From NCBI GenBank assembly GCA_011773465.1, contig WVXO01000024.1, forward strand, positions 1 to 64,000: 64,000 nt of DNA. Direction: 5' to 3'. The notes under the pieces were generated by a model. The model did no database searches. It saw only the letters and a program-made list of their open reading frames with translations, and was not told where the DNA came from. Made by a program: the position numbers and the translations under genes. Source of the DNA: Candidatus Aminicenantota bacterium (lineage in GTDB: Bacteria > Acidobacteriota > Aminicenantia > Aminicenantales > Aminicenantaceae). Shown in pieces: positions 5,694-10,915 of this stretch. Each line of letters begins with the position of its first letter. Within the stretch, counting starts at the first letter, position 1.

Positions 5694-6608
5694 TCATAAG
5701 TCGAATTTTATCTTTGTCTCAACAGTGAAAAATTTATAATTTTTGTATGAAACTTGAGTTATTGTACGGATAAATTTTCTTCCTCTTTTGCTCACATATG
5801 ATTCTTCAAGGTAAAATTGACTAGGGAATCTGATTCCATTTTTTTCGATGCCAAATACCGAAATGACTGTAAGCCTAGGCTCAGCCTTGTATTTCTTGGC
5901 TCGTTCTTCAATAATTTTAAAATTCCCGATGGACCTTTGACTATATTCAATTTTCATGATGCTTGAATCACTTTCCTTAACCCAGATTCTTCCGACAAGA
6001 TATTTCTGCTTGGCTGAAGCTTTGGGAATGGCCTCGATTACCAACATCTTTTCTCCATTCAAAACTTCTTCACCGACCATTCGATAATCGTGGAAGTGCT
6101 GCCAATAATCGTTTAGCAACCCTGCTGGTCCGAAAAGTATTTTTGCATAGCGAAACGAGATAGTTTTTAACTGGGCATCTTTTTCATTTTTCTTTTTTCC
6201 GTTCTCTTCTATGAGAATCCTCTTCTCCATTATTTTCTGACCTTTTCTTATAAGCTGGAAATCGTAGACATATTTATTTTCCACTTTTGTTCTTGGAGTT
6301 TTAATGAAGCTACTTGATCTAACTTGGCCTCTGCCAATTACAGTTGGGGTTGACAAGATTTTTAGAACTATATCCCTGCTGTAGTTAGTCTCTTCTTTAA
6401 TTTCTTCCAAGCATACAAAATTCAGAGCTACATCTTGAAGCCTTTGGCAATATTTCTTGGTTCTTTTCAGAATTTCGGCTAATCTTTGCTGGTTAGTTTG
6501 ATGAATCTGATTTTGAGTAAAACTTACTGCGAAATTTCTTCCCCAAAAGCTAGAATGTAAAATAAAAAGCAGAGCTAGAGATAGAAGAACTTTTTCCTTG
6601 GGCTTCAT
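5694..6608 (-). CDS. Uncharacterised exported protein
   Basis: This 304-aa protein has an N-terminal signal sequence (KVLLSLALLFILHSSFWG). The mature part is beta-rich, with segments such as YVYDFQLIRKGQKIMEKRILIEENG and EVLNGEKMLVIEAIPKASAKQKYLVGRIWV. This layout recalls the LolA/outer-membrane lipoprotein-sorting fold, but no diagnostic motif is seen. It is the last gene of a five-gene minus-strand operon; its ATG overlaps the GWxTD gene stop by 4 nt, implying translational coupling. It probably acts in the periplasm. The function is not known. Confidence 0.8.
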   Translation of the reverse strand: MKPKEKVLLSLALLFILHSSFWGRNFAVSFTQNQIHQTNQQRLAEILKRTKKYCQRLQDVALNFVCLEEIKEETNYSRDIVLKILSTPTVIGRGQVRSSSFIKTPRTKVENKYVYDFQLIRKGQKIMEKRILIEENGKKKNEKDAQLKTISFRYAKILFGPAGLLNDYWQHFHDYRMVGEEVLNGEKMLVIEAIPKASAKQKYLVGRIWVKESDSSIMKIEYSQRSIGNFKIIEERAKKYKAEPRLTVISVFGIEKNGIRFPSQFYLEESYVSKRGRKFIRTITQVSYKNYKFFTVETKIKFDL

Positions 6609-8671
6609 TTTATCTCTTTCAGAATCTCGATAACCTTCTTAATATCCTCCTGATGGGGATTTATTTCCAGGGATTTCTGCCAAATCTTAATGGCTTCCTT
6701 GTTTTCGCCGAGCATATAATAGCACTCTCCGATGGCATTGAGAATCTCGACCACATTCCCTTTATGCGAGAGGGCTTTTTGATAATAAGAAATGGCTTCT
6801 TCAAAAGAGCCTTCTTCTTGAAAAGCTTTCCCGAGAAAATAGTTAAGTGTAAAGACCTCTCTTTCCGATTCAGTAAAAGCCAGAAGGACTTCTTGCACTT
6901 TCTTATACTCATTAGACAATAAGAGCACTCTTGCATAGCCTAAAGCAAAATCCAGAGTCTCGGGACTTTTCAGGTAGGCCTCCTCAAATTTTTGTCGTGC
7001 TTTTGGGACCTCTCCCTTGTTTAAGTACTGTTCGCCGAGAATATAAGCATAGTGTGCAACGTTGCTAGGTCCCCCTAACGGAGTCATAAGCCAAGGCTCA
7101 GGCAACCGCTTTGTTAGGATTGACAATTTTGTATTCTCTGATAGAATTTCCTTACCGTCATTATCTAAAATTGAGACCTGCAGCGTATATTTTCCCGGGA
7201 GAAATCTTTTCAGAAGGAACTCCTCTAAAAAATATCGTTGTTCTTGATATTCTCTTACTTCTTTCTTTAAGGTTAATACTTTTTCCTTTTCTCGATAAAA
7301 TGCAAACTCTAGTACTCCTTTTTCTTCTAATTCTTTAGTTAAGCCAAAAATCTGGAAGGCAAGATACAACTTGTCCCCACTAAAGAAATTCTTCCTTGGA
7401 GAAGGATAGATCTGAATGCTTCCCACCCGAAAGGCCTTATTCAATTCGCGGTAGGGAGAAAATTTATCAACTTTATTGGCAAGCATTATAGGGCTCATCG
7501 CCAGAGAATTCGGCTCAGGAATAGAAATCTCTTTCTCAAATGAGGTGAATTCCATGGAAACCGTGTTTTCGAGCAAAAGATTAAACTTATAGTTTCCAGG
7601 AATAAGCGGAAAAGAATCATACAGAAGAAATGGCCTTTCCTTTATTTTCTTTAACTCTTTCTTTTTTAATTCAATAGGCAGATTCTTTTCATCTTGGAAA
7701 ATTGTCTTTCCCTCCGAGTCCGTTATCCTGATGGATGTCTTTAGGTTTGTATGATATCTATCCAGGTAGAAATCAACAGAGAGCTTTACAGGTTCGAGAT
7801 AATAATTCACAAAGAATATTCCCGATTCATCCTGAAGAATACTAACCTCAGAAATGCTGGATATATAGTTCACAGAGTGGCTTACTTCCACTACTGGCTT
7901 GTGCTCTAAAAAACTTATGACGTACTCATCCCTGACTCTTTTGTGCGAGAAAGTAGGAACCTGACCAACCAAAATTGCCGAGGGGATTCGCTCCCTTTTG
8001 GAATTTATGCTTGAGCCAGGAAAACTGGACCAGGCTGCTTGAGCTAATTCCAGGGATACTCTTTCTTTAATTAATTTATAAGCGGCATCGTCCTCCTCTT
8101 CCGCACCCCCTCCAGCAGCTAGCGGAGTCAGACTTCTTGGGCCATCAGAAATAGGACTGTAGAGCTGATATTCTCCTACTCCAAATCTCTGAAAGAAAAT
8201 GAGACGAAAAAACGGAGGCTGACCGAACTTTGGGTCTCCCATATAGTACCATAGCTCTATGGGATAAATTTCAGCGGCGATGAATTTCATGACCTGCTGG
8301 GGTTTACCCAAGATGATATAAATCTTGCCCCTATCCGTCTTCCAGCCCGGGATGCTGGAATTCCTGACGAACGTTTTATTGGCATACTCAATCCTTCTGT
8401 AATGCTCTTCTTTGAATTCATTCCTCGGCGTTCCTGGAATATGGTCCCGTTGCCGCCAGAATTCTTCAATAAACATTTCCCTTTCTCTATTTGTCTCCAG
8501 CTTGTAAAAGGCCTCCTTTTCTCTGGGGGTAATAATGTAAACGACCTCTTCTTTGATCCATTTTTCATATTTTTCAGGAAGATTCGACTTTTCAGCCTCC
8601 TGTTTCAAAGGAAAACAAAGAATAAAAAGCAATGATAGCAATAATATTTTCTTCCCCTTTTTTTGAAACAT
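6605..8671 (-). CDS. GWxTD domain protein with TPR repeats
   Basis: The 688-aa protein begins with a signal peptide (KKILLLSLLFILCFPL). The GWxTD domain follows: EFWRQRD and a GWKTDRGKIYIILGKP motif at about residues 109-124, the defining motif of this family, which is common in Acidobacteria and Aminicenantes. The middle (~260-540) is beta-rich and may be Ig-like. The C-terminal ~150 residues hold tetratricopeptide repeats (EQYLNKGEVPKARQKFEEAY, GECYYMLGENKEAIKIWQKS). It starts 2 nt after the redoxin gene stop. The biochemical role of the family is unknown; TPRs suggest a protein-protein scaffold on the periplasmic side. Confidence 0.9.
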   Translation of the reverse strand: MFQKKGKKILLLSLLFILCFPLKQEAEKSNLPEKYEKWIKEEVVYIITPREKEAFYKLETNREREMFIEEFWRQRDHIPGTPRNEFKEEHYRRIEYANKTFVRNSSIPGWKTDRGKIYIILGKPQQVMKFIAAEIYPIELWYYMGDPKFGQPPFFRLIFFQRFGVGEYQLYSPISDGPRSLTPLAAGGGAEEEDDAAYKLIKERVSLELAQAAWSSFPGSSINSKRERIPSAILVGQVPTFSHKRVRDEYVISFLEHKPVVEVSHSVNYISSISEVSILQDESGIFFVNYYLEPVKLSVDFYLDRYHTNLKTSIRITDSEGKTIFQDEKNLPIELKKKELKKIKERPFLLYDSFPLIPGNYKFNLLLENTVSMEFTSFEKEISIPEPNSLAMSPIMLANKVDKFSPYRELNKAFRVGSIQIYPSPRKNFFSGDKLYLAFQIFGLTKELEEKGVLEFAFYREKEKVLTLKKEVREYQEQRYFLEEFLLKRFLPGKYTLQVSILDNDGKEILSENTKLSILTKRLPEPWLMTPLGGPSNVAHYAYILGEQYLNKGEVPKARQKFEEAYLKSPETLDFALGYARVLLLSNEYKKVQEVLLAFTESEREVFTLNYFLGKAFQEEGSFEEAISYYQKALSHKGNVVEILNAIGECYYMLGENKEAIKIWQKSLEINPHQEDIKKVIEILKEIK

Positions 8672-8673
8672 TG

Positions 8674-9219
8674 TTATTTTATCATTTCATCTAATATCTT
8701 GATGAATTCTTTTTGTTCATAAAGAGTAATCCTGACTCTGTCTATTAATAAAATTTTCCCCTTACTATCTATCAATAATTTAAGAGGTGTCCTCTTTATG
8801 TTGAGCTTGTTTGTAATTTGTGATTCTTCGTCATATAAGACGGGGAAATATATCTCAGAATTTTCTACCCAATCTTTAAGTTCTTTTTTATCACTATGAG
8901 TTGCAATTCCTATAATTTTAATCCTTCTTTCTTTTGAAATCCTATTCCAGAGGTCTCTTTCATTCAGGCAAGACCTGCAATCTACGGGAGAAAAAAAAAC
9001 TAAAAGTGTATAGGCTTTACTATTTAATATATCATCATATCTATATCTTACTCCATTTAAGTCATATAATAAAAAAGTTGGGATTAAGTCTAATATAACT
9101 GTAGGGCATTTCGGAATTTCAATATTTTTTTTTATCTTTTTTCTCAAAACAAAATTTTTATAAAAAAGAAATAAACTTAATAGAATTAATAATGTTATAA
9201 CTGAATATTTTAATTTCAT
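8674..9219 (-). CDS. Membrane-anchored TlpA/peroxiredoxin-like thioredoxin-fold protein
   Basis: Residues ~5-22 form a single N-terminal membrane anchor. The rest has the AhpC/TSA-TlpA thioredoxin fold: YTLLVFFSPVDCRSCLNE gives the redox motif CRSC at residues 81-84, and NKLNIKRTPLKLLIDSKGKI supplies the cis-Pro strand. At 181 aa it is a normal size for a TlpA-like protein. It lies 2 nt downstream of the beta-propeller gene and 2 nt upstream of the GWxTD gene. The neighbouring Cys-rich exported peptide is a plausible redox client, which is inference. It should reduce or isomerise disulfides outside the cytoplasm. Confidence 0.85.
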   Translation of the reverse strand: MKLKYSVITLLILLSLFLFYKNFVLRKKIKKNIEIPKCPTVILDLIPTFLLYDLNGVRYRYDDILNSKAYTLLVFFSPVDCRSCLNERDLWNRISKERRIKIIGIATHSDKKELKDWVENSEIYFPVLYDEESQITNKLNIKRTPLKLLIDSKGKILLIDRVRITLYEQKEFIKILDEMIK

Positions 9220-9221
9220 AA

Positions 9222-10310
9222 TTAATTTAACAATAGTGTATATTTGCCAATTCTATACTTAGGCTCTTTTTCTAAATTTTCTTCTTCTTTTAAAATTAGA
9301 AAATATAAGAAATCATCACTATCCCTGCACAACAGTCTATAATCAGTTTGAATCCCACCAGCGATAAAGTTTCCTTTTTTGTCCCAAATATCAATTACAT
9401 ATTTTTTATCGAAGCCTTTAATCAGATTATTCATTTCCAAAATAAGCAAAAGAAATTCATCTTTCAATACAATGATGTCTATAAGTTTAGTCCAAGAAGC
9501 CGATAATATCTTTAGTTCGTTAATTATTTCAGATTGAGCACTAAATCTTGTAAAATCGATTTTTTTTCTGATATTGGGATGCCTGAAATAAGACGGAGCT
9601 TTGCCAAATTCTGTTAATAATTTTCCTTCAGAGTTATATTTGCTAATTCTATAATCACAATGTTGGACCGCATATATTATATCTTCTCCATCGATATCGA
9701 AACTACAAAAAGGGGCAATACGTTGAACCCAATTTTTATTATATTTATTCGATGGAAAAAATGATGTAATATATCTTCCTTCTAAATTATATTTATTAAT
9801 CCACATACCAAATTCTGGATGGTTATAATCTTTTCTAATAAATCCTTTTAGAAATATAAATCCATTTGAATTTATTTTTATGCCCCATGCTTGATTTTGA
9901 GTACTAGAGATTATAAATGAATTAATAAATCCTTTATCTAGACTAAATTTACTAATCCTTTTGAGAGGAAGATCAGAAACAAAAATGTTATTTTTATTAT
10001 CAACTTCAATTGAAATTGGAAATTTAAACTCACCGGGTCCTTCACCTTTTCTTCCTATAGTACATAAAAAATTTCCTTTCTGGTCAAAAACTAAAATTTG
10101 GCATCCCTTTGGATCTAAAAAAATAATATTTTTATCTAGATCTACTTTTAGCTCTCCTAACCTCCAAACATTTAAACCATGCGTGAGTATATGTACTTCT
10201 TTATCTTTTTTAAATACATCAGCAAATTTATAAGTTTTTTCTTCATATGTAAAAGAATTGCAAAGTGAGAGGATAAAAAAAGCGTAGATGTATCCTTTAA
10301 ATTTAATCAT
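9222..10310 (-). CDS. 6-bladed beta-propeller (NHL-like) exported protein
   Basis: This 362-aa protein has an N-terminal hydrophobic signal (GYIYAFFILSLCNSF) and then NHL-like blades. The motif CTIGRKGEGPGEFKFP (around residue 83-98) is the hallmark of the 6-bladed beta-propeller family common in Bacteroidetes and Aminicenantes. Repeated blade patterns include ILVFDQKGNFL, NNIFVSDLPLKRISKFSLD and YRISKYNSEGKLLTEFG. It is the second gene of the operon, 67 nt after the small Cys-rich peptide and 2 nt before the redoxin. In Bacteroidetes such propellers sit beside short NVEALA peptides, and this arrangement looks analogous. Ligand and role are unknown. Confidence 0.85.
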   Translation of the reverse strand: MIKFKGYIYAFFILSLCNSFTYEEKTYKFADVFKKDKEVHILTHGLNVWRLGELKVDLDKNIIFLDPKGCQILVFDQKGNFLCTIGRKGEGPGEFKFPISIEVDNKNNIFVSDLPLKRISKFSLDKGFINSFIISSTQNQAWGIKINSNGFIFLKGFIRKDYNHPEFGMWINKYNLEGRYITSFFPSNKYNKNWVQRIAPFCSFDIDGEDIIYAVQHCDYRISKYNSEGKLLTEFGKAPSYFRHPNIRKKIDFTRFSAQSEIINELKILSASWTKLIDIIVLKDEFLLLILEMNNLIKGFDKKYVIDIWDKKGNFIAGGIQTDYRLLCRDSDDFLYFLILKEEENLEKEPKYRIGKYTLLLN

Positions 10311-10377
10311 GCAGCGGGCAAAATTTTGGGGGAATTTTTACCTTAAGTATTTTTCTATTATTGTTGGTTACGAATTT

Positions 10378-10593
10378 TTACATACAACCACAGCATTCTT
10401 CATAATCAGGATGACAGATGCAAAAGTAATCTGAATCTCCATCACCGTATCTTATCTCAACAGTGTATCCAAATTCACCTGCGCAAGGTCTGGCTTCCGC
10501 ATAAGGAACCAAACTTTGAATAATCATAAAAACATTTACTAAAATCAGCACTCCGATGAGTATAACTCCCAAACTAATTTTTAATTTTGCCGT
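10378..10593 (-). CDS. Small exported Cys-rich peptide, probable non-ATG start
   Basis: The ORF track starts this ORF at a TTG (10572), but a strong Shine-Dalgarno (GGGAGG) lies 5 nt before an in-frame ACG at 10591-10593. Starting there adds KLK to the n-region and gives a textbook signal peptide (AKLKISLGVILIGVLILVNVF) with a cleavage-like YAEA. The mature part is about 35 residues with six cysteines, CAGEF...YFCICHPDYEECCGCM. It leads the operon that encodes a beta-propeller, a CxxC redoxin and a GWxTD protein. It resembles the Bacteroidetes NVEALA peptides in layout, not clearly in sequence. It could be a disulfide-bonded, ribosomally made product; its function is unknown. Confidence 0.65.
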   Translation of the reverse strand, partial: TAKLKISLGVILIGVLILVNVFMIIQSLVPYAEARPCAGEFGYTVEIRYGDGDSDYFCICHPDYEECCGCM

Positions 10594-10837
10594 CTTTACC
10601 TCCCTATTTTAAATAAATAGCATTATCAAATTATGTTATCAACAGATTTTCATTGGTAAATTTCTGGATTATTCTGGCATTTTCTATCCTGAATTATTCA
10701 TAAATCAAAATATAAGAAATTGGTTTTTTGGCTTGCTACAAATTCTTCACTATTTTCCATAATTTTCACCCACTGACATCCTGCGAGACCTCCAAACCAT
10801 TGAGTCTAATAAAGAGAATCAACAAGAGGGTGGAAGC
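10594..10837. other. Upstream region of the peptide operon
   Basis: This AT-rich stretch must hold the promoter of the five-gene operon, but no pair of boxes with good spacing could be recognised. The only clear signal is the GGGAGG ribosome site at about 10600-10606. No further gene is seen. Confidence 0.4.
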
Positions 10838-10915
10838 TGGTACGCGCGGAGGGATTTGAAACCCCGACCTTCTGATTCGTAGTCAGATTTTCTATTCAGT
10901 AGCAAGACTTCTTCT
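10838..10915 (-). pseudogene. Second tRNA-Arg(ACG) remnant
   Basis: The minus strand carries the anticodon arm TCTGA-CTACGAA-TCAGA, variable loop AGGTC, T-arm GGGGTTTCAAATCCC, the 3' acceptor strand TCCGCGCGT and an encoded CCA. The D-arm is degenerate (CTACTGAATAGAAAA) and the 5' acceptor strand has no match, so folding fails. It shares 28 identical nt with the remnant at 4460-4487. It lies about 300 nt from an intact tRNA-Arg(CCT). Confidence 0.75.

Follow-up and report, generated by a model that had tools for sequence, protein, structure and literature searches.

A conserved three-gene cassette, as read from the sequence, lies within a minus-strand run of five genes in the window, the 64,000-nt stretch of Candidatus Aminicenantota contig WVXO01000024.1 analysed here. 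It encodes a small exported peptide, an NHL/DUF5128 beta-propeller and a membrane CxxC redoxin (Table 1). Genome comparisons show that the cassette is widespread in this class of Acidobacteriota and that the co-occurrence of its genes is real. The explanation that we lean towards is that of a disulfide-hairpin peptide matured by its own redoxin and bound by its own propeller. The small peptide would be exported by a Sec-type signal, the membrane-anchored periplasmic redoxin would form or reshuffle its disulfide(s), and the secreted neighbouring propeller would be its dedicated binding partner, whether as carrier, receptor or larger subunit.

Table 1. Cassette genes, signals and neighbouring genes in the window
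Feature	Positions	Strand	Length	Evidence or remark
GGGAGG ribosome-binding-like site	10599..10604	minus		5 nt before ACG 10593
Small exported peptide frame	10378..10593	minus		Leader ending AEA, ~35 residues with six Cys; start ACG 10593 or TTG 10572
C-x6-C family signature, CHPDYEEC	10393..10416	minus		Spacing C-x6-C in most peptides
Six-bladed NHL/DUF5128 beta-propeller with signal peptide	9222..10310	minus	362 aa	PF17170 (DUF5128) 51.4 bits, cut-off 22.9; structure model
Membrane-anchored thioredoxin-fold protein (TlpA/ResA-like), CRSC, cis-Pro	8674..9219	minus	181 aa	AhpC-TSA 43 bits, cut-off 26
GWxTD-domain TPR protein, co-directional neighbour outside cassette	6605..8671	minus	688 aa	TIGR04514 109.9 bits (cut-off 28), 8e-32, plus TPRs
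LolA_like exported protein, neighbour outside cassette	5694..6608	minus	304 aa	PF17131 30.0 bits, exactly the cut-off; 4-nt overlap with GWxTD gene

All five open reading frames are present in the ORF list of the window, and the gaps of 67, 2, 2 and -4 nt given in an earlier note on this DNA match the recomputed coordinates exactly. The propeller, the membrane thioredoxin-fold protein with its CRSC motif and the GWxTD-TPR protein that this note had named were each recovered by profile searches (Table 1), and the peptide frame carries six cysteines in ~35 residues after a hydrophobic stretch (AEA followed by RPCAGEFGYTVEIRYGDGDSDYFCICHPDYEECCGCM), as it had described. Just upstream of the cassette, positions 10838-10890 on the minus strand hold the 3′ part of a tRNA-Arg with no recognisable 5′ half. 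Two 3′ ends nearly identical to it (2 mismatches in 32) occur at other places in this genome as parts of intact tRNA-Arg genes, and the fragment is possibly the trace of an integration event.

The peptide frame of the window has no ATG, and its ribosome-binding site points at the ACG. The TTG, its first in-frame ATG, GTG or TTG, lies ~26 nt from the GGGAGG site, and a start there would drop the positively charged N-end of the leader. Peptides of the other cassettes start with ATG, or in a few cases with GTG or TTG, behind a site of this kind; a AAAGGGGG/GGAGG-type site stands before most of the family's peptides. Sequence alone cannot decide whether the ACG is a start codon of a rare kind, a damaged one or a mistake of the assembly. 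With ACG in place of the expected start codon, this genome may express the peptide only weakly or may have lost it.

Frames with six cysteines in 35 residues are not rare, being reached by 3 of the 270 small ORFs of the window, so the case for the peptide rests on conservation and we dropped cysteine composition as evidence. Neither the window peptide nor those of its relatives match a Pfam family. With a profile built from only the two peptides of the closest relative, the window frame ranks first among 1074 frames (E 0.004), and its position and cysteine pattern add to this link. It is the most divergent of the peptides and comes only second-best (E 0.099) against a wider profile built without it.

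The earlier note had proposed looking in relatives for a short cysteine-rich ORF upstream of propeller-TlpA-GWxTD sets, and such an ORF does recur beside propellers with a redoxin. Within the family, the best match of the propeller (~44-45% identical) was found in only one other genome, a MAG labelled Acidobacteriota that is the closest relative (G001). There the order is peptide-propeller-redoxin-peptide-propeller (L044), and the redoxin, which adjoins a propeller, is 42% identical to that of the window. A third propeller match, at 34% (G297, L140), has no peptide adjoining it in the ORF list. A three-peptide profile then matched an ORF in G014, again upstream of a propeller, and iteration of the profile revealed class-B peptides in 18 of the 94 genomes of the order, with scores mostly between 1e-20 and 1e-38 in most of the 18. 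A propeller, whole or broken, adjoins 22 of 23 class-B peptide loci; most of these loci also have a redoxin, which overlaps the propeller stop by 4 nt. The merged peptide profile has matches in 26 of the 142 genomes of the class.

For an out-of-sample test, we searched with a peptide-only profile and then inspected the neighbours of 14 newly matched loci. Twelve lie beside a propeller, one, at the edge of a contig, adjoins a redoxin, and one, a weak 49-aa match, lies beside neither. At several loci of family f7 (L258, L261, L267, L269) the order is propeller-redoxin-peptide; the genes are shuffled yet together, and the association therefore survives reshuffling. Where copies stand in tandem (L044, L171), pairs or triads of genes are duplicated together, and some cassettes lack the redoxin (L173, L238). 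This recurrence is a solid part of the case.

The cassette also appears in decayed form. At four loci (L142, L179, L180, L182) the propeller or the redoxin is frameshifted or truncated beside the peptide ORF, which suggests fast gain and loss. No propeller copies were found in viral contigs. In the 2.6 Mb of the genome studied here, DUF5128 propellers are matched 18 times, mostly with no such peptide upstream. Upstream of one of these other propellers (contig C16, L050, 5836-6433), we observed 76- and 97-aa exported cysteine-containing ORFs of an unrelated type, and no redoxin was seen at that locus.

GWxTD homologues occur in 37 of the 38 genomes of the family, and in a same-family control none of the three cassette genes lay within 1.5 kb at any of 29 sampled GWxTD loci; we therefore place the GWxTD and LolA-like genes outside the cassette. 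The LolA-like gene also follows GWxTD in G008 (L240), where the pair stands without the cassette, and neither gene was seen in the ORF list of the G001 cassette. The earlier note had counted both genes as parts of the system and had suggested the GWxTD protein, as an alternative to the propeller, for display, binding or export of the peptide; the comparison supports neither a place in the system nor an export role for the two genes. A five-gene system in which the GWxTD-TPR and LolA-like proteins join in peptide display or export would agree with the spacing of 2, 2 and -4 nt, which suggests co-transcription in this genome, but given the G001, G008 and control loci we regard it as very improbable. 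The best explanation is that the two genes form a separate unit, probably running in the same direction by chance.

Conservation of cysteines points to the substrate of the redoxin. Of 35 peptides, 34 have two cysteines within 30 residues of the C-terminus, spaced C-x(4-8)-C and mostly C-x6-C, as in the CHPDYEEC of the window; the exception is a peptide with a single core cysteine (L143). The CxxC is kept in 22 of 23 redoxins, and both the CxxC and the cis-Pro are invariant in the 11 cassette redoxins that were aligned. One redoxin (L257, 1590-2099) has CxxN in place of CxxC and lies beside a four-cysteine peptide. An alignment of the cassette propellers revealed no cysteine column common to the mature proteins. 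Since only the peptide and the redoxin keep conserved cysteines, the redoxin probably has the peptide as its natural substrate. This pattern of conservation, which is another solid element, favours the suggestion of the earlier note that the redoxin handles the disulfides of the peptide; the chemistry itself we infer. A model of a G001 peptide (pTM 0.36) is too weak for reading a disulfide pattern. The window redoxin shares with TlpA/ResA-type oxidoreductases the N-terminal membrane anchor, AhpC-TSA fold, CxxC and cis-Pro, and has PDB matches to ResA. Unlike those enzymes it sits in a peptide cassette, and it scores below the NCBIfam cut-offs for ResA, DsbE and StoA.

A class-C variant of the cassette (G418, G297; L144/L176, L237) combines a MauE-rhodanese fusion (PF07291, 9e-25 and 4e-14) with tandem Cys/Trp-rich peptides, a propeller and a membrane protein that occupies the redoxin position but shows no CxxC. 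The variant is what speaks for another reading, in which a periplasmic propeller protein consists of two subunits, the peptide being the small cysteine-rich one, and is assembled by redox factors like MauD and MauE, as is the small subunit of methylamine dehydrogenase. For that enzyme, MauE has been proposed to help form the disulfides of the beta-subunit (PMC7794033). The mau maturation set likewise brings redox factors, a small cysteine-rich partner and a propeller together in one locus. However, the cassette shows no homology to mau structural genes, its propeller is six-bladed and of NHL type, the window cassette has no MauE, and the class-C protein in the redoxin position shows no CxxC. 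Membership in methylamine dehydrogenase was rejected, as Pfam scans of peptides and propellers returned no such family, and we consider the two-subunit reading unlikely.

The peptide could also be a secreted effector or signal, of the antagonist, hormone or bacteriocin type, with the propeller as its receptor or immunity protein. A leader followed by a short cysteine-containing core, a patchy distribution, and tandem and decayed copies would all suit such a role, and that Streptomyces has MauE/MauD genes in candidate RiPP clusters (PMC7794033) counts on the same side. A radical SAM gene (PF04055, 3e-15) in one class-C locus (L237, 1424-2968) lies beside a 62-aa cysteine-rich ORF (CCEYC...CPLVC), between two propellers, and looks like a RiPP pair. 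This is the only cassette locus with a radical SAM gene; the window cassette has no maturase among its ORFs, so that a RiPP cluster was rejected, and no exporter either. Unlike diversifying toxins, which pair a conserved leader with a hypervariable core, class-B peptides show similar conservation in the mature part (42% identity) and in the leader (45%), and sequence comparison shows them to be under purifying selection (dN/dS about 0.1-0.4). In class A, pN lies only a little below pS. On balance an effector or signal seems to us improbable, at about the level of the two-subunit reading.

It is less probable still that the leader stays uncleaved and the peptide works with the redoxin as a small single-span membrane subunit. 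The long, well-conserved hydrophobic stretch, predicted to be helical over residues 4-28 in the G001 model, would fit such a subunit, as would the membrane anchor of the redoxin; against it, most leaders finish with an AxA-type site (AYA, AKA, AEA).

For the hairpin peptide that we favour, the partner would be the propeller. Its structure model (pLDDT 76) has an NHL-type six-bladed fold, with Foldseek E-values down to 1e-12. The solved structures nearest to it are the NHL domains of TRIM71 and Brat, the Bacteroides exported proteins 4raa and 3s9j, and the lyases Vgb and PAL, all alike in fold; the cassette propeller is exported. We tried the possibility of a peptide-amidating or virginiamycin-type lyase and rejected it. 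No histidine is strongly conserved in 16 cassette propellers, the most conserved column reaching at most 9 of the 16, which speaks against catalysis of the Vgb/PAL type. A binding role is favoured, and this too we infer. Distances between peptides correlate with those between their propellers (r 0.87 for all, 0.81 within class B), a result that would fit dedicated pairing but also shared descent.

The parallel that the earlier note had drawn to Bacteroidota, which place NVEALA peptides beside propellers, holds for the layout of the genes. On a Phocaeicola vulgatus plasmid (NZ_CP096966), an NVEALA (PF14055) peptide is followed by a six-bladed propeller, a membrane CYPC redoxin and another propeller. 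The ORF of this redoxin starts upstream of the annotated one and includes the membrane anchor and the CYPC. Here, too, a leader peptide, a six-bladed propeller and a membrane CxxC redoxin lie side by side, and tandem peptide-propeller pairs are shared as well, P. massiliensis having three of the NVEALA kind. The two kinds of cassette differ in their parts. NVEALA peptides have variable cysteines and leaders that end in NVEALA or NIEALA, unlike the peptides here; the Phocaeicola propeller has a lipoprotein-like N-end, unlike that of the window; and the redoxins are only distantly alike (39% probability). By sequence, the peptide itself is not an NVEALA peptide, as neither that of the window nor those of its relatives match PF14055 (hhalign 0.3%). 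It was also rejected as a member of DUF6520 (PF20130), a family of small Bacteroidota proteins. The best E-value was 0.01, and the matches, to 2 of 17 class-B members, are all below the curated cut-off, as is a similarly weak match of DUF6520 to one NVEALA peptide (0.056). No peptide was found beside propellers in Parabacteroides and in one P. massiliensis record (L219-L222), and the propeller family is therefore broader than the cassette. A literature search for NVEALA, DUF5128, DUF6520 and GWxTD returned no papers, and no functional description of gut Bacteroidota propellers beside tiny leader peptides was found in the open literature.

The layout across phyla is a further solid part of the evidence. 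Recurrence of the same arrangement in another phylum, with unrelated peptides, usually fixed cysteine spacing and a retained CxxC, points to a shared job. More tentatively, we suggest that the peptides form an undescribed C-x6-C disulfide-hairpin family, each with its own propeller and dedicated redoxin, that NVEALA is its Bacteroidota counterpart, and that both may represent a periplasmic peptide-propeller module general to diderm bacteria; we would stop just short of calling this probable. The cassette adds a peptide family that is absent from Pfam-A and NCBIfam. Its comparison across genomes names a likely substrate for the redoxin and makes the function of the propeller/peptide pair directly testable.
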